DNA of 64,000 bases, taken from contig NZ_JAHRYQ010000001.1 in the NCBI RefSeq assembly GCF_020622065.1, positions 868,001 through 932,000 on the forward strand, written 5' to 3'. Made by a program: the position numbers and the translations under genes. How positions within the stretch are numbered: position 1 is the first letter of the stretch; every line of letters begins with the position of its first letter. Source of the stretch: Geothrix sp. (GTDB lineage: Bacteria; Acidobacteriota; Holophagae; Holophagales; Holophagaceae). This document shows positions 46,998 through 54,354 of the stretch, in pieces. The notes under the pieces are model-generated. The model was not told the DNA's origin, did no database searches, and saw nothing but the letters and a program-made list of their open reading frames with translations.

Positions 46998-47015
46998 ACC
47001 CTTCAGCCCTTCCGG
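46985..47015. terminator. Hairpin over the convergent stop codons of the POT and PilZ genes
   Basis: CCGGAAG (46985-46991) and CTTCCGG (47009-47015) enclose an inner CTGAA-CCC-TTCAG stem, and both stop codons lie within the structure. There is no T run, so termination strength is uncertain, but the symmetry suits a bidirectional stop. Confidence 0.4.
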
Positions 47016-47701
47016 AAACTCTGCGAGCGGTCGGTGCGCCGGGCCTGGATGAAGCGATGGATGGCCTCGAGGTCCGTATCGGGCCGGGGCTTCAGGACGA
47101 GGCCCAGGCGGGTGGGGTGTGGCTGGCCTTCGAGGTAGATGAGGTGCAGCACCTCGCCGGGGCAGTGCAGGAGGGTGCCATCCGGCAGCTCCGCATCGAT
47201 CTCGACGGCATCGTGGAGGTCCACCATCAGGGGCTCCTCCAGGGCGAGCCCCACGCCGGTCTCCGTGAGGTTCACCAGCAGGGCTTCGTACTGGCGCCCG
47301 CCATGGGCCACCTTCACCTTGAGAGGCGACTGGTCGGGCGCGGCCACCCGCAGGTTCCGCCGGTGGTGGAGATGCGCCGATTCGTGCGGCCAGTCCAGGC
47401 GAAGGAGGGTGTTGCCGGCCTCATCGAGCAGGGGCGGGAGGAGGAGGGATTCGAGGGTGAGCACTTCGTCGCCCAGGAGGATCGTGAGGGCCACGGCCGT
47501 GCCCTCCGGGGGCACCGAGTCGCGGGGGTGGAGCCCGGACAGTTCCAGGACCGACCCCGGGCGGAAGCCGTGGATGTGCAGATCCCCCAGCAGGCGGGAG
47601 TTGACGCCCTGGAGCCTCAGGCTCCCCACGGCCTTGGTGAGGCGGGCCTGGATGAGGAACTGCTCGAGCACGGGAGCGGACAGAGAGGATGCGTGTCCCA
47701 T
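47003..47701 (-). CDS. PilZ domain c-di-GMP receptor protein (YcgR-like layout)
   Basis: This is a 232-residue protein. The N-terminal 110 residues form a YcgR-N-like beta domain (AVALTILLGDEVLTLESLLL). The C-terminal PilZ domain has the RxxxR-type site in HHRRNLRVAAP and the second motif VNLTETGVGL in place of DxSxxG. It binds c-di-GMP and likely alters motility or the envelope. It may respond to the c-di-GMP enzymes elsewhere in the window (2971 and 11943). It is convergent with the POT gene and 13 bases after the phosphoesterase. Confidence 0.82.
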   Translation of the reverse strand: MGHASSLSAPVLEQFLIQARLTKAVGSLRLQGVNSRLLGDLHIHGFRPGSVLELSGLHPRDSVPPEGTAVALTILLGDEVLTLESLLLPPLLDEAGNTLLRLDWPHESAHLHHRRNLRVAAPDQSPLKVKVAHGGRQYEALLVNLTETGVGLALEEPLMVDLHDAVEIDAELPDGTLLHCPGEVLHLIYLEGQPHPTRLGLVLKPRPDTDLEAIHRFIQARRTDRSQSFRKG

Positions 47702-47714
47702 GGGATCCTGCCTT

Positions 47715-48455
47715 TCAAATGCCTTGGCCCAGCCGGTCTGCCAGGTTGCGGTGCAGCCCCGCGGCCAGGATGGCCTTGGCTGCGCCCTTCACATCGTAGT
47801 CGAGGCGGTGCAGGCGCAGACGGCGGCGCTTGGGGTCGAAGGTCATGAAGGACACGCGGGGATCGCGGTCCCGGGGCTGGCCCACGGAGCCCGGGTTCAC
47901 CAGGTACCGGCAATGCGCCTGCAGCTCGAACCATTCCCCGGGCTCGGGGCTGATCCAGTTCAGGCGGCCCTGGACCTCGTCCAGTTCGAAGCAGCCGGGC
48001 AGGTGGGTGTGGCCGAAGAAGCAGAGCTGGCCCTCGAAGGCATCGAAAGCCTGGCTGATTTCGCGCATGTGGAGAAGATAGGCATCTTCATCCACGGGCG
48101 ATCCATGGGCGATCTGGTAGTCCTCGCCCACCCAGAGGGGACCCACTGGCAGGTCCACCAGAAAGCGCCAGTTGTCCTGCCGCAGCTTCTCCCGGGTCCA
48201 GTCCGCGGCCTGCCGGGCGGGCAGACTGAAGCTGGAATCGGGCTCCAGGCCCGCGCAGACCTTGTCGTGGTTGCCTCGCACCATGAAGCGGGGCCGCAGC
48301 TCCCGCACCTTGTCCAGCAGCTGGTTGGGGTGGGCGCCATAGCCCACCAGGTCGCCCAGCAGGACGAAACGGTGGATGGCCCGCCGCCGCGCGAACCGCA
48401 GCACGGCCCGGAGGGCATGCAGGTTCGAGTGCAGATCGGACAGGATCAGATCCAA
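47715..48455 (-). CDS. Metallophosphoesterase (calcineurin-like)
   Basis: This is a 246-residue enzyme. All five metal motifs are visible: SDLHSN, GDLVGYG, GNHD, HGSP and GHTH, with VNPGSVGQPRDRDPR typical of the YfcE/MJ0936-type family. It probably hydrolyses phosphodiesters; the physiological substrate is unknown. There are 19 bases from the ThiE-AroK gene, upstream on the same strand. Confidence 0.88.
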   Translation of the reverse strand: MDLILSDLHSNLHALRAVLRFARRRAIHRFVLLGDLVGYGAHPNQLLDKVRELRPRFMVRGNHDKVCAGLEPDSSFSLPARQAADWTREKLRQDNWRFLVDLPVGPLWVGEDYQIAHGSPVDEDAYLLHMREISQAFDAFEGQLCFFGHTHLPGCFELDEVQGRLNWISPEPGEWFELQAHCRYLVNPGSVGQPRDRDPRVSFMTFDPKRRRLRLHRLDYDVKGAAKAILAAGLHRNLADRLGQGI

Positions 48456-48474: not shown

Positions 48475-49623
48475 TCACCAGTCTAGCAAGGCCGAGGCCA
48501 GCTCCCGGGAACTGTGACCAAAGGCGAGGGCCATCGGCGCCAGCGACCAGGCGGGCATCCGGGCGGCCCACCGGGCCATGAAGGCGGCCCGGTCCTGGGC
48601 CAGGGGGCGGTTGGGGTCCTGGCCGGCTCGTGCCCAGGCCCGGGCGGGCGCTTCCGCCAGCCAGAGGGGGGCGAAGCCGGCGGCCTGCACCGCCGCCCGG
48701 TTGGCGGGGGATTCCCAGGCCCCGCCCCCCAGGGCCACCACGGCCTGCACGGCCAGCAGGCCCGGGAGCAGGGCCGACTCCAGCGCCCTGAAGGCGGGCT
48801 CGCCGTCGGCGGAGAAGATCTCGGCCACCGGGCGCCCCTCGCGGGCCTCGATGGCCTCGTCCAGGTCGTGGAAGGGCAGGGCCAGGCGCTCAGCCAACTC
48901 GCGACCCAGGGTGGTTTTGCCGGCCCCGCTGCCGCCGATGATCGCGAGGCCCTGGCCGCACCGAAACGGCGGGCGCACCCGCCAGCGCTGCCGCTGGATC
49001 TCCCAGCCCAGGGCCGCGGGGTCGTCTGTTCGGTGGACTTCGCCCACCATGGCCAGGGACTCGGCCCCGGCCTCGAAGCAGGTGGCGGCATCCGCGAGCG
49101 TCAGGCCTCCGATGGCCACGGGCGCGAGGCCCTGGGCCCGCAGCGCGGCACAGCCGGCCCGCAGTCCCTCCAGCCCGATGGGCGCGGCGTGGCCGGCCTT
49201 GGTGCGCGTGCCGCGGAAGGGTCCCACTCCGGCGTGGTCGCAGGCGGCATCCACGGCTTTCCATTCACCGGCCTCATGGGTGGAGGCGCCCAGATGGGCT
49301 CCAGCCAGGCCGGGCAGCCGCCTGGCTTCGGCGGCAGGCAGGTCGCCCTGGCCCAGGTGCAGACCCCAGGGCGCCAGATCCTCCCGAGCCGCCAGCATGG
49401 CCAAGTCCGCCCGATCGTTCACGCAGACCATGGGCCAGCCGCCATTCGCCGCGGCTTCCGTCAGGGTGGCGTGCAATTCGATCCATTGCTCCTTCGCCTC
49501 GAGCGGTTTGCCCCGGAACTGCACCAACGGGAAGCCGGCCTCGCCCAGCCGTCGGATCTGCGCGGACAGCGATTCGCTGCGCGTGGCGTCGGTGATCGGA
49601 TAGAGGGGCGGCAAGGAGAGCAT
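48475..49623 (-). CDS. Fusion of thiamine-phosphate synthase (ThiE/TenI) and shikimate kinase (AroK)
   Basis: This 382-residue protein starts from ATG 49623. Residues about 5-205 are a ThiE/TenI TIM barrel: LVQFRGK, CVNDRADLAML, WGLHLGQGDLP, LGASTHEAGEW, AGVGPFRGTRTKAG and VAIGGLTLADA. Residues 225-382 are a shikimate kinase: P-loop GGSGAGKTT (230-238), FHDLDEAIEAREGRPVAEIF (D253, D255), GGGA (299-302) and lid RPLAQDR. The ThiE site departs from consensus (QFRGK for QLREK, TRTK for TPTK), so it may be TenI-like. Shikimate kinase is one step of aromatic synthesis; aroB is 3.7 kb away. I know of no common ThiE-AroK fusion. Confidence 0.85.
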   Translation of the reverse strand: MLSLPPLYPITDATRSESLSAQIRRLGEAGFPLVQFRGKPLEAKEQWIELHATLTEAAANGGWPMVCVNDRADLAMLAAREDLAPWGLHLGQGDLPAAEARRLPGLAGAHLGASTHEAGEWKAVDAACDHAGVGPFRGTRTKAGHAAPIGLEGLRAGCAALRAQGLAPVAIGGLTLADAATCFEAGAESLAMVGEVHRTDDPAALGWEIQRQRWRVRPPFRCGQGLAIIGGSGAGKTTLGRELAERLALPFHDLDEAIEAREGRPVAEIFSADGEPAFRALESALLPGLLAVQAVVALGGGAWESPANRAAVQAAGFAPLWLAEAPARAWARAGQDPNRPLAQDRAAFMARWAARMPAWSLAPMALAFGHSSRELASALLDW

Positions 49624-49656
49624 GGAGATCCAGTCTACAGGCTCCAAACCCGCCAG

Positions 49657-51444
49657 CTAGGCCGCTTCGCCGTCCGCGAACTGCAGCCGCACCAACTTGG
49701 CGTAGACGCCATCCTGGCTGATGAGGTCGTCGTGGGTGCCGCGCTCGACGAGGGCACCCTGATCCATGACCCAGATCTCATCGGCGTCGCGGATGGTGGA
49801 CAGGCGGTGGGCGATGGTGAAGGTGGTGAGGCGGTGGCTCACGCGCTCAATGACGGTCTGGATCTTGGCCTCGGTCTCGGAATCGATGTTGGCGGTGGCC
49901 TCGTCCAGCAGCAGGACGGCGGGCTCCAGGTAGAGCATGCGGGCGAAGGCCAGCAGCTGCCGCTCCCCGGCGCTGAGCTTCTGCCCACGCTCGCCCACCT
50001 GGGTGTCCAGGCCCTGGGGCAGGCGGCCCACCAGGTCCTTGAGCTGGCTCTGCTCCAGGACAGAGGTCAGGCGGGCCTCGTCCATGGGCCGATCCAGCAC
50101 GATGTTGTCGCGCAGGGTGCCGGAGAAGACGAAGACATCCTGGAGCACCAGGCCGAAGAGGTCGCGCAGGCTGCGGATCTTGAGCTCCCGCACATCCACG
50201 CCATCCACGGTGATCCGGCCCTCGTGCACATCGTAGAAGCGCATCAGCAGGTTGATGAGGGTGCTCTTGCCGGCCCCGGTGTGGCCCACCACGGCGATGC
50301 GCTTGCCCTTGGGGATGAGGCCGCTGAGGCCGCGCACGACCTTCCGGCCGCCTTCCTCGTAGGCGAAGGTCACCTCGTCGAACCGGATCTCCCCGGCGAA
50401 GACGGCGGGCTTGGCCCCCGGCGCTTCGGGGATCTCCTCGCGGTTGTCCAACAGCCGGAAGATGCGTTCGCTGGAAGCCAGGGCGGTCTGCATCACATTG
50501 TACCGTTCCGCCAGTTCACGGATGGGCCGGAAGAAGCGGCTGGACTGCTGGATGAAGGCCAGCAGCAGGCCCCAGGTGATGGCCCCGGCCTGGAGCTTGA
50601 AGCCCGCGTAGAAGATGAGCGCCGCCAAGGTGCCGGAGGTGATGAACTCGACGACGGGAAAGAACACGGCGTAGGCGAAGATCGTGCGCAGGAAGGCCTG
50701 GAAGTAGTCCTCGTTGAGGTCGCGGAACTGCTGGCGGCTGTGCGCTTCCTGGGCGTTGACCTGCACGAGGCCCATGCCCGAGATCTGCTCCTGGAGGAAG
50801 GCGTTGATGGCGGCGTAGCGCCGCTGGGTTTCGCGGAAGGCCTCGCCCGCCCGGCGGCGGAAGACCTCCGTCGCCACCAGCAGGAAGGGCAGGATGCCCA
50901 GCGCCACCAGGGCCATGCCGGGGTGGGTCCAGAACATCCAGGCCACGATGGCCAGCAGGGAGAGCGCATCCCCCACGATGGCCACGAAGCCCGAGGCGAA
51001 CATTTCATTCAGGTTCTGGACATCGCTGGTGACGCGGGTCATGAGACGGCCCACGGGATTCCGGTGGAAGAACTCCGTACTGCGGCCCATGAGGTGCGCG
51101 AAGAGCTGGACGCGGAGGTCGAGCATGGCCTTCTGGCCGACCTTGGCCAGGAGGAAGTAGCGGGCGAAGCTGACGAGGAAGCCCGCGATGAGCACGCCGA
51201 AGAAGCCCGCCACCATGGGCGCGGCACCCTTCAGGCTGCCCTGGCCCATGAAGCGGTTGATGAGGCGCAGGGTGAGTTCCGAGGGCAGCACCTCGAGGAA
51301 GGCGCCGAGGGCCATCAGGATCAGGAGGGCCAGAAGCGCCGCCCACTGGGGACGGAGGTAGCCGGCGAGCCGCCACAGCAGGGCATGGCGCATGGGGCGC
51401 TGGTCGACCCGGTCGGATTGGAAGAAAGCTCCCTGTTCGGACAT
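49657..51444 (-). CDS. ABC exporter, fused membrane-ATPase (MsbA/MdlB-like)
   Basis: This is a 595-residue half-transporter starting from ATG 51444. Six membrane helices (from about residue 30 to 310; e.g. WAALLALLILMALGAFLEVL) are followed by an ATPase with GHTGAGKST, signature LSAGERQ, VLLLDEAT and switch His in TIAHRLST. The family exports lipids, drugs or peptides as dimers; MsbA-like flippase function is possible but not provable. It diverges from the M28 peptidase gene across a gap of about 90 bases. Confidence 0.88.
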   Translation of the reverse strand: MSEQGAFFQSDRVDQRPMRHALLWRLAGYLRPQWAALLALLILMALGAFLEVLPSELTLRLINRFMGQGSLKGAAPMVAGFFGVLIAGFLVSFARYFLLAKVGQKAMLDLRVQLFAHLMGRSTEFFHRNPVGRLMTRVTSDVQNLNEMFASGFVAIVGDALSLLAIVAWMFWTHPGMALVALGILPFLLVATEVFRRRAGEAFRETQRRYAAINAFLQEQISGMGLVQVNAQEAHSRQQFRDLNEDYFQAFLRTIFAYAVFFPVVEFITSGTLAALIFYAGFKLQAGAITWGLLLAFIQQSSRFFRPIRELAERYNVMQTALASSERIFRLLDNREEIPEAPGAKPAVFAGEIRFDEVTFAYEEGGRKVVRGLSGLIPKGKRIAVVGHTGAGKSTLINLLMRFYDVHEGRITVDGVDVRELKIRSLRDLFGLVLQDVFVFSGTLRDNIVLDRPMDEARLTSVLEQSQLKDLVGRLPQGLDTQVGERGQKLSAGERQLLAFARMLYLEPAVLLLDEATANIDSETEAKIQTVIERVSHRLTTFTIAHRLSTIRDADEIWVMDQGALVERGTHDDLISQDGVYAKLVRLQFADGEAA

Positions 51445-51535
51445 GGGGCCATTCTCCCACAGGCGGCCCAAATCCTGCGGGAACCGGGACGGATCTCCGG
51501 AGCGCCGGTAAAGTAGGGGGATCCCCGGAGATGCC

Positions 51536-53293
51536 ATGGGCCCCTGGACTTTGACCTTCCTCGCCGCGGCCCTCGTGGCGCCGGTGCCGCCCTCCGGCTC
51601 CGAGACGGCCGTGGCCGCCCGGCTGCGTCGCGATGTGGGCTACCTGGCCTCGCCCGCCCTCAAGGGCCGCGGCAACGGCTACCCCGAGCTGGAGCAGGCC
51701 GCCGGCCGCATCGCGCGGGAATGGAAGGCTCTGGGGCTGAAAGCGCAGATCCAGCGGTTCCCCTTCATCGCCAAGGTGGTGCGTGAGCAGCAGGAGGCCG
51801 TGCTGCTTCACGGTGATGAAGGTCGACCCCTGGTGTGGGGCCGCGACCTCGAGGCCCTGGGCTTCAGCGGGGACGCGGATTTCCGGAACAAGCCCCTGGC
51901 CTTCCTGGGCTACGGCGTGCAGATTCCCGGCGGGTATGACGACCTGGCGGGCATCGAACTGAAGGGCCGTGTGGCGGTGATCGCCCGGGCCGTGCCGGAT
52001 CTGGATGCCTTCGCCCACCTGCCCCGGGGCGAGCGGAGCCTGCTGGCCCGCCTCAAGCGACTGGAGACGGCTCAGGTGGCCGCGGTCCTCGTGCTGGAAG
52101 AGGGGGGACTCCGGCCCCTGCAACGGGAAGAGGGGCCCGTGAAGTTCGACATCCCGGTCCTGGGCCTCTCTCCGGAGGCGCTCGGTGCGGCCTGCGGGGA
52201 TCTCCAGGCCCGGTTCAAGACCATCAAGGCGACGGGCAAGCCCGCCAGCCAGGACTTCATCTATGCCCCCTGGACCGCCCTCACGCTGAAGCTGAAGCTC
52301 CGCCGCGAAGAAGCCCAGGTGCCCAATGTGGTGGCGGTGATCCCCGGCCGGGATCCCAAGCTCCGGAAGGAATACATCGTCCTCGGTGCGCACCTCGACC
52401 ACCTCGGCCTGGGCGAGCGGCACAGCATGGGCGGCGCCGAGGCCCGCGGCCAGGTGCATCCCGGCGCCGACGACAATGCCTCGGGGTCGGCGATGGTGGT
52501 GGAATTGGCGCGGGAACTGAAGAAGGCCCGGCCCCGGCGCTCCATCCTGCTCATGCATTTCGGGGGCGAGGAGGAGGGCCTGCTGGGCTCGAGCTACTGG
52601 GTGCAGCACCCGACCCACCCCCTGGAATCCGTGAAGTTCATGCTCAACTTCGACATGGTGGGCCGCCTGGATCCCAAGGCGCCCAAGCTGATGATGGGTG
52701 GCCTGGGCGCCCCGAAATCCGCCGTGGAGGCAGCCAAGAGGTTCGCCCCCGAGGGCTTCGCCATCAGCGCCGATGTGGGCGCCAGCGTGGGCGGCTCGGA
52801 CCACATGAGCTTCTCGCAGGCGAAGATCCCCACCTTCTTCTTCTTCACCGGCATCCACGGCGAGTACCACCGGCCCACGGACACGGCGGACCGCATCAAC
52901 TTCGAGGGCATGGCGAAGCTCGCGCCCTTCGGGCGGGCGGTGGTACTGGATCTGGCCAACGCCGACACGCTGCCCGCCTTCGATCCGGAGACCGCCAAGC
53001 TGCCCATGAAGGGCGACGGCGGCCCCATGCGCATCGCCTTCGGCACCATCCCGGACTACTCGGACAACCCGAAGGGCTTCCGCATCAACGGCGTCTCCAA
53101 GGGCTCCACCGCCGAGGCGCTCGGCCTCCAAGCCGGCGATATCCTCACGAAGTTCGGCGAACGGCCCATCAAGAGCATCTACGACTTCATGGCCGCCCTG
53201 GGTGCCCACAAGCCTGGGGACAAGGCCCTGATCCAATGGCTGCGCGGCGAGCAGACCATGCAGGCGGAAGACACTCTGCGGGGTCGCCCATGA
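51536..53293 (+). CDS. Secreted M28 family aminopeptidase with PA and PDZ domains
   Basis: This is a 585-residue protein with a signal peptide. A protease-associated insert covers roughly residues 130-240. The M28 zinc-peptidase domain has HLDHLG, HPGADDNASG, GGEEEGLLGS and NFDMVGR, plus a late His in GIHGEYHRPTDT. A C-terminal PDZ domain is seen in FRINGVSKGSTAEALGLQAG. It hydrolyses peptides in the periplasm or outside. The stop overlaps the aroB start (ATGA), a functionally surprising coupling. Confidence 0.9.
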   Translation: MGPWTLTFLAAALVAPVPPSGSETAVAARLRRDVGYLASPALKGRGNGYPELEQAAGRIAREWKALGLKAQIQRFPFIAKVVREQQEAVLLHGDEGRPLVWGRDLEALGFSGDADFRNKPLAFLGYGVQIPGGYDDLAGIELKGRVAVIARAVPDLDAFAHLPRGERSLLARLKRLETAQVAAVLVLEEGGLRPLQREEGPVKFDIPVLGLSPEALGAACGDLQARFKTIKATGKPASQDFIYAPWTALTLKLKLRREEAQVPNVVAVIPGRDPKLRKEYIVLGAHLDHLGLGERHSMGGAEARGQVHPGADDNASGSAMVVELARELKKARPRRSILLMHFGGEEEGLLGSSYWVQHPTHPLESVKFMLNFDMVGRLDPKAPKLMMGGLGAPKSAVEAAKRFAPEGFAISADVGASVGGSDHMSFSQAKIPTFFFFTGIHGEYHRPTDTADRINFEGMAKLAPFGRAVVLDLANADTLPAFDPETAKLPMKGDGGPMRIAFGTIPDYSDNPKGFRINGVSKGSTAEALGLQAGDILTKFGERPIKSIYDFMAALGAHKPGDKALIQWLRGEQTMQAEDTLRGRP

Positions 53294-54354
53294 GGCTTGC
53301 CACGCCCTCCGGCTTCGCCACGGAGGTCTTCCTGCTGGAGGCCCCGGACAAGGGCCTGTTGCCGGATGGCCACTGGACCCTGGTGGGTGACATGCGCCTG
53401 CGGGAGGCCTGGACGGGCGCGGGCATGCCCGAGCCGGGCGATGCCCTGTGGGTGACGGTGCCCGAAGAGGAGAAGAAGCTGCGCACCGTGATTCCCTGGC
53501 TGGAGCACTGGGCCCGGGTGCCTCTCCACCGGGATGCCACGGTGGTGGCCCTGGGCGGCGGTGTGGTCTCGGACCTGGTGGGACTGGGCGCGGCGCTCTA
53601 CCTGCGCGGCGTGGCCTGGCAGGTCTGGCCCACGACCCTCCTGGCCATGGCGGATGCCTCCCTGGGCGGCAAGACCGGCGCCGATCTGGCCGCGGGCAAG
53701 AATCTGGTGGGGGCCTTCCACCCCCCCAAGCGCCTCGTGGCCTGCACGGGATTCCTGAAGGACCTCCCCGCGCGCCACCTCGAGAACGGCCGCTGGGAGC
53801 TGATCAAGACCGCCCTGATCCAGGGCGAGATGGCCTGGGCGATGGAGATGCTCCAGGACGGACCGGTCCGGTTCGCCTGGGTGGAGCGGGCCCTCGCCTA
53901 CAAGGCCGGGGTGGTGCACCGCGATCCCCGCGAGGCGGGCGAGCGGCGTCTGCTGAACCTGGGCCACACCCTCGGCCATGCCCTCGAGGCCGCCTCGGGC
54001 TACCGGCTGCTCCACGGCGAGGCGGTGGGGTTGGGTCTGCTGGGCGCCTGCCTGTTGGCGGAGGAGCAGGGCCTGAAGCCCTTCCCTCCAGACCTTCTCG
54101 ACCTCCTGGTTCGGCGCCTGACGCCCTTGGCGACCCTCATCGCCCCCTGGCCCGCCTGCCTGCCGCTGCTGCACCGCGACAAGAAGGCCAAGCGCGCGTC
54201 CGGCCACACCGAGGAGGCGCCCGCCACGGAAGTCCACTGCATCCTGCCGCGCCCCGGCGAATCCGCCATCCAGCGCGCGCTGGCGCCCCGCGTCTGGGAA
54301 GTCCCCCATGCCCGTCTCATCGACCTGCTCGACCACGAGGCCCACCGTGCCTGA
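53290..54354 (+). CDS. aroB: 3-dehydroquinate synthase
   Basis: This is a 354-residue protein. NAD+ and metal features are ATVVALGGGVVSDLVGLGAA, TTLLAMADASLGGKTGADL, NLVGAFHPPKRLVA, NLGHTLGHALEA and LLHGEAVGLGL. It converts DAHP to 3-dehydroquinate in the shikimate pathway, which also contains the nearby shikimate kinase domain. Key Lys, His and Glu ligands appear intact. It starts within the M28 stop and overlaps the GTG start of the TPR gene, so these three genes form one coupled operon. Confidence 0.93.
   Translation: MRLATPSGFATEVFLLEAPDKGLLPDGHWTLVGDMRLREAWTGAGMPEPGDALWVTVPEEEKKLRTVIPWLEHWARVPLHRDATVVALGGGVVSDLVGLGAALYLRGVAWQVWPTTLLAMADASLGGKTGADLAAGKNLVGAFHPPKRLVACTGFLKDLPARHLENGRWELIKTALIQGEMAWAMEMLQDGPVRFAWVERALAYKAGVVHRDPREAGERRLLNLGHTLGHALEAASGYRLLHGEAVGLGLLGACLLAEEQGLKPFPPDLLDLLVRRLTPLATLIAPWPACLPLLHRDKKAKRASGHTEEAPATEVHCILPRPGESAIQRALAPRVWEVPHARLIDLLDHEAHRA

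Follow-up and report, generated by a model that had tools for sequence, protein, structure and literature searches.

One gene on the minus strand of the window, the whole 64,000-nucleotide stretch analyzed here, encodes a fusion of a ThiE-type barrel and a shikimate kinase domain. We judge the fusion to be new and its two component enzymes to be known. On the reading that we favor, with a probability of about 0.76, the product is a bifunctional ThiE–AroK protein whose halves work independently. The fusion would have arisen through loss of the stop between thiE and aroK, and would have been kept because the organism's sole shikimate kinase forms its tail.

The earlier note had claimed a continuous frame carrying both domains, and this was borne out, with exact coordinates (Table 1). 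Translation of the frame revealed no internal stops; an in-frame TTG at 49647 is a possible alternative start, which would add 8 residues to the protein. In Pfam, TMP-TENI (PF02581) matched residues 7–195 (E = 3.9e-29, 101.7 bits versus a cut-off of 27) and SKI (PF01202) matched residues 233–347 (E = 1.1e-29, 104.1 bits versus 22.1), both far over cut-off. Among PDB sequence matches, ThiE structures cover residues 8–209 and shikimate kinases cover residues 211–360. An AlphaFold model built from a 5-sequence alignment, with secondary structure assigned by DSSP, showed a β/α barrel, a connecting helix and the kinase, in that order (mean pLDDT 76, pTM 0.73). Foldseek searches with this model retrieved ThiE of Bacillus subtilis (2TPS) at 6e-11 and shikimate kinase of Mycobacterium tuberculosis at 1e-7.

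Table 1. Coordinates of the fusion gene, its parts and its neighbors in the window
Feature	Position	Strand	Remarks
thiE-aroK fusion gene	48475..49623	minus	382 aa; ATG start at 49623, TGA stop at 48475-48477
ThiE (thiamine phosphate synthase) barrel	49006..49623	minus	residues 1-206; Pfam PF02581 and B. subtilis ThiE residue mapping
Join: last barrel helix (202-216) and ~8-residue linker to first kinase strand	48952..49020	minus	AlphaFold, DSSP
Shikimate kinase domain	48478..48951	minus	residues 225-382; Pfam PF01202 and residue mapping
ABC transporter gene	49657..51537	minus	upstream of fusion; neighbor conserved in family
Calcineurin-like phosphoesterase gene	47715..48455	minus	downstream of fusion; adjoins aroK or thiE-aroK in other Acidobacteriota families
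PilZ-domain gene	47003..47701	minus	conserved next neighbor within family
aroB (3-dehydroquinate synthase)	53236..54354	plus	3.6 kb from fusion; conserved nearby in family

Among 100 relatives examined, 61 genomes belong to the same family, Holophagaceae. Of these, 55 encode the whole fusion protein (42–91% identity), 5 have partial copies, and 1, a 77%-complete draft, has none. A further family member in the wider phylum sample (G388) gave no match at E ≤ 1e-27. Where contigs with a matching fusion gene are named, the names are those of Holophagaceae bacteria. An error of assembly or of sequencing, the latter named in the earlier note as a potential refutation, is contradicted as the source of the join by its presence in 55 full-length relatives, several of them single-contig. 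Nothing was found in its support, and its probability is negligible. Chance and sequencing error are ruled out by this conservation, and the fusion of the ThiE-type and shikimate kinase domains is confirmed as real.

The barrel keeps 11 of 11 ThiE positions checked, namely Q35, R37, K39, N69, D70, D94, S114, T139, T141, K142 and G173, and these are conserved over the family. Mapped through a PDB alignment, they are the equivalents of Q57, R59, K61, N92, D93, D112, S130, T156, T158, K159 and G188 in B. subtilis ThiE numbering (used hereafter), which we take to be the catalytic positions of that enzyme. The barrel thus has the fold and all checked catalytic positions in common with B. subtilis ThiE, but it carries a kinase, has G for S209, and scores under the cut-off of the curated NCBIfam equivalog model TIGR00693 (100.6 versus 145.1 bits). 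A fused relative from outside the family (G177) passes that model, at 172.7 bits.

The low TIGR00693 score, together with the fact that TenI has the same fold, leaves room for a reading in which the first domain is not ThiE but either a thiazole tautomerase of the TenI type or a dead relic. Foldseek does match TenI to the barrel by fold, with a lower rank, as expected of homologous barrels. Yet every ThiE catalytic position checked is present, and PDB sequence matches up to E = 1 are all ThiE and none TenI. The NCBIfam TenI model PRK07695 is not among the 25 best matches for the fusion protein. Moreover, wholesale loss of the ThiE residues occurs in just two family genomes, each with a reason to spare ThiE (described below). 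We consider a tautomerase or relic very unlikely. The suggestion in the earlier note that the barrel may be TenI-like or regulatory did not hold up, and the degenerate TenI-like protein of this genome is the product of a separate gene.

That second protein is one of two TMP-TENI (PF02581) matches in the organism's own genome (3.35 Mb, rated 100% complete), the other being the fusion. It scores 43 bits, with the match at G000:C1:129506-129955, and is encoded at L046:5453-6010 on the minus strand (G000:C1, about 129453-130010), downstream of an aldo/keto-reductase-like gene. It occurs family-wide and has a diverged active site, with SRPL, HAPE and V.G motifs replacing those of ThiE. Both this protein and its family orthologues lack equivalents of D93, D112 and S130, which disqualifies it as a spare ThiE. 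No copy other than the fused barrel has the residues of a thiamine phosphate synthase, and this speaks against a TenI-like identity. For the kinase, a search of the genome confined to the SKI family, as distinct from archaeal-type (GHMP) shikimate kinases, yielded the fusion as its only match. Every SKI-bearing family genome likewise has a single SKI match, apart from one gene split over two contigs. Thus, to the question of whether a separate aroK or thiE exists in the genome, the answer was that neither a second shikimate kinase match nor a second barrel with ThiE residues exists. The genome has ThiC and ThiG, and likely ThiL as well: a ThiL-type kinase scores 167 bits against a cut-off of 184, which orthologues from the same genus narrowly exceed. 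Given these genes, and aroB 3.6 kb away, the organism needs both products and therefore both halves of the fusion, for neither of which a replacement was found. Control of the fusion by a TPP riboswitch was also considered, and rejected, as no element was found in the window at the gathering score or in the organism's own genome.

The kinase half keeps 14 of 14 positions checked: Walker A (GGSGAGKT), D253/D255, R279, E282, GGG at 299–301, R339 and R355. These correspond to Walker A, D32/D34 (DxD), R58, E61, GGG, R117 and R136, whose functional roles in shikimate kinase we take as given, and they are conserved over the family. The same elements, lid residue R117 included, are common to AroK/AroL as represented by the M. 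tuberculosis structures (1L4U/2IYQ). Unlike M. tuberculosis AroK, the fused kinase has a 225-residue N-terminal barrel and a diverged C-terminal quarter, with the Pfam SKI match ending at 116 of 159. Against its best NCBIfam shikimate kinase equivalog model, it scores under the cut-off (97.6 versus 186 bits). With both halves under curated equivalog cut-offs, the family has diverged, though the residues are kept. The earlier note would have been undercut by a half that lacked catalytic residues and fold; instead, both halves keep all of the residues checked, and both folds were recovered with AlphaFold and Foldseek.

Two family genomes provide natural experiments on the fusion. In G048 (89% complete), ThiC, ThiG and any other ThiE were not found; the fused barrel has lost R59, K61, N92, D112 and K159, with the kinase residues intact. 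G054 has two extra ThiE copies, one adjoining ThiG; its fused barrel has lost nearly all of the catalytic positions (Q57, K61, N92, D93, D112, T156, T158 and K159), and again the kinase residues are intact. G373, a congener of G054, keeps all ThiE residues in its fused barrel. Such loss is possible rather than automatic, since G050, G059 and G060 carry an extra canonical ThiE yet keep the fused ThiE residues. The barrel loses its residues where ThiE is no longer needed, from which we conclude that it normally carries out ThiE chemistry and that the kinase acts outside thiamine synthesis. The two halves look separable from these comparisons, and the kinase half is not a thiamine enzyme.

G048 also has a TPP-riboswitch-like element, whose 52.6 bits fall slightly short of the gathering score (54.3), directly before a thiamine-uptake gene; the locus is L108, 2590-3579. 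The uptake gene reads as one for a thiamine-binding ABC transport protein, and the gene beside it as thiamine-pyrophosphokinase-like. Such an element before a thiamine-uptake gene was seen in one genus of the family, in G048 (L108) and G058 (L109), and in none of the other family genomes searched, though most of these make thiamine de novo. Separately, two genomes of 1.2 Mb (G053 and G358; L048 and L106), far smaller than those of relatives, keep the fusion, with P and S in place of T156 and T158.

These comparisons bear on whether the C-terminal domain might instead be a thiamine-pathway kinase (for thiamine phosphate, HMP or thiazole), in which case both fused activities would belong to the same pathway. 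There are known examples of ThiE joined to a kinase of thiamine synthesis (ThiDE, yeast Thi6), Foldseek matches Thi6, and the ThiL match in the organism's own genome falls short of its curated cut-off. However, ThiL orthologues in the genus reach that cut-off, aroB is nearby, and the genome, rated 100% complete, has no second match to the shikimate kinase family. The shikimate-site residues are kept, also in G048, a genome that appears to have lost the de novo synthesis of thiamine. The domain is thus not confined to genomes that make thiamine de novo, being intact in G048, where ThiC and ThiG were undetected. From the intact G048 kinase and the sole-copy status we rejected a thiamine-kinase role, which we hold to be highly improbable.

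A different alternative, and the main rival to the favored reading, is that the barrel also, or now mainly, acts as a platform that supports or regulates the kinase, for example through dimerization or by sensing a thiamine intermediate, and so couples aromatic and thiamine synthesis. In both G048 and G054, the barrel is still attached to the kinase and alignable end to end despite its lost catalytic residues, so a second, structural role could exist. Between G048 and G058, the ThiE half is no more diverged than the kinase half (64% versus 63% identity), and dN/dS is 0.11 versus 0.17 (NG86; rough, with dS saturated). But the G054 barrel is fast, with a branch length of 1.16 versus 0.29 for the kinase in trees of the halves, and dN/dS of 0.52 versus 0.33 (NG86, rough). 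Stand-alone aroK genes occur in other Acidobacteriota. Moreover, when a gene is essential, a domain encoded at its 5' end is hard to delete, so passive retention predicts the same persistence. Hence, we regard a platform role as rather unlikely. A more specific version, in which the barrel partners the kinase allosterically or structurally, with thiamine intermediates tuning entry into aromatic synthesis, and becomes a pure scaffold or sensor where ThiE catalysis is lost, strikes us as unlikely to a slightly greater degree.

In the favored bifunctional reading, the N-terminal barrel would join HMP-pyrophosphate and thiazole phosphate to form thiamine phosphate, and the C-terminal domain would phosphorylate shikimate with ATP. 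The two reactions most likely run independently; they have no metabolite in common, so channeling is not expected. Chemistry of a new kind is probably not involved. With aroK present only as an extension of thiE, the 5' half could not be removed unless a new start site arose. Co-production with passive retention is the most economical account of why the fusion would have been kept.

As to origin, we scanned 396 Acidobacteriota genomes and found four further loci, outside the family, where the query spans both domains. In G249, G324 and G177, ThiE and kinase are in one frame. In G142, thiE and aroK are adjacent; TGA ends thiE, and a possible aroK start (GTG) lies 48 bases on. All four loci sit between accC and a relative of the window's calcineurin-like phosphoesterase gene, and accB is also present wherever the contig extends far enough. 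Other genomes have parts of this arrangement: accB-accC-thiE (G089, G085, G098, G093, G078), accB-accC-aroK (G066, G072, G094) and aroK-phosphoesterase (G089, G081, G078, G096, G087, G090). In the window's family, the ABC transporter gene stands where accBC stood in the cluster. These gene orders are most simply read as derived from an ancestral accB-accC-thiE-aroK-phosphoesterase cluster, with later loss of the stop between the neighbors thiE and aroK, and the fusion likely originated as such a read-through. In trees of each half, the family is on its own long branch. In AU tests, a tree uniting all fused forms in one clade was not rejected (p = 0.148 for ThiE and 0.216 for the kinase), which allows for either one old fusion followed by fission or several separate fusions.

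Across Acidobacteriota, the order accB-accC-thiE-aroK-phosphoesterase-pilB persists in pieces (L151–L186) and links genes for fatty acids, thiamine, aromatics and the pilus. The phosphoesterase itself follows aroK or thiE-aroK in many families of the phylum (the window and L101–L104) and scores under YfcE cut-offs.

Several known proteins resemble the fusion in part. ThiDE/ThiED fusions and yeast Thi6 likewise place a ThiE barrel and a kinase in one chain, but both of their halves serve thiamine synthesis, whereas the window's kinase would serve aromatic synthesis. Shikimate kinase is likewise a fusion module in AroK–AroB proteins (PRK13951, PRK14021) and in HTH–shikimate kinase regulators (PRK08154), where the partner is aroB or a DNA-binding domain rather than ThiE. 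A TMP-TENI barrel is in an unexpected fusion in the Nudix–TenI/ThiE protein (PRK08999), whose partner is a Nudix hydrolase. Shikimate kinase and aroB were also seen in one frame, of the known AroK–AroB type, on a Gemmatimonadetes contig (L040:2049-3959). The pairing of ThiE with shikimate kinase appears in no NCBIfam model matched and in no paper found in the literature searched, in line with the earlier view of it as uncommon. Absence from the libraries searched is not proof of novelty, and sequence databases very likely hold the pairing unremarked. Since both halves score under equivalog cut-offs, aroK and thiE of this family are liable to be missed or misnamed in annotation.

Two essential pathways that have no common intermediate are thus tied together in one polypeptide across a bacterial family. 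The loci form a natural series, from genes apart, to genes adjacent with a stop between them, to genes fused, to fusions with one half dead. This series makes for a clean case in which to ask whether gene fusions need a function, or whether gene order alone can fix them.
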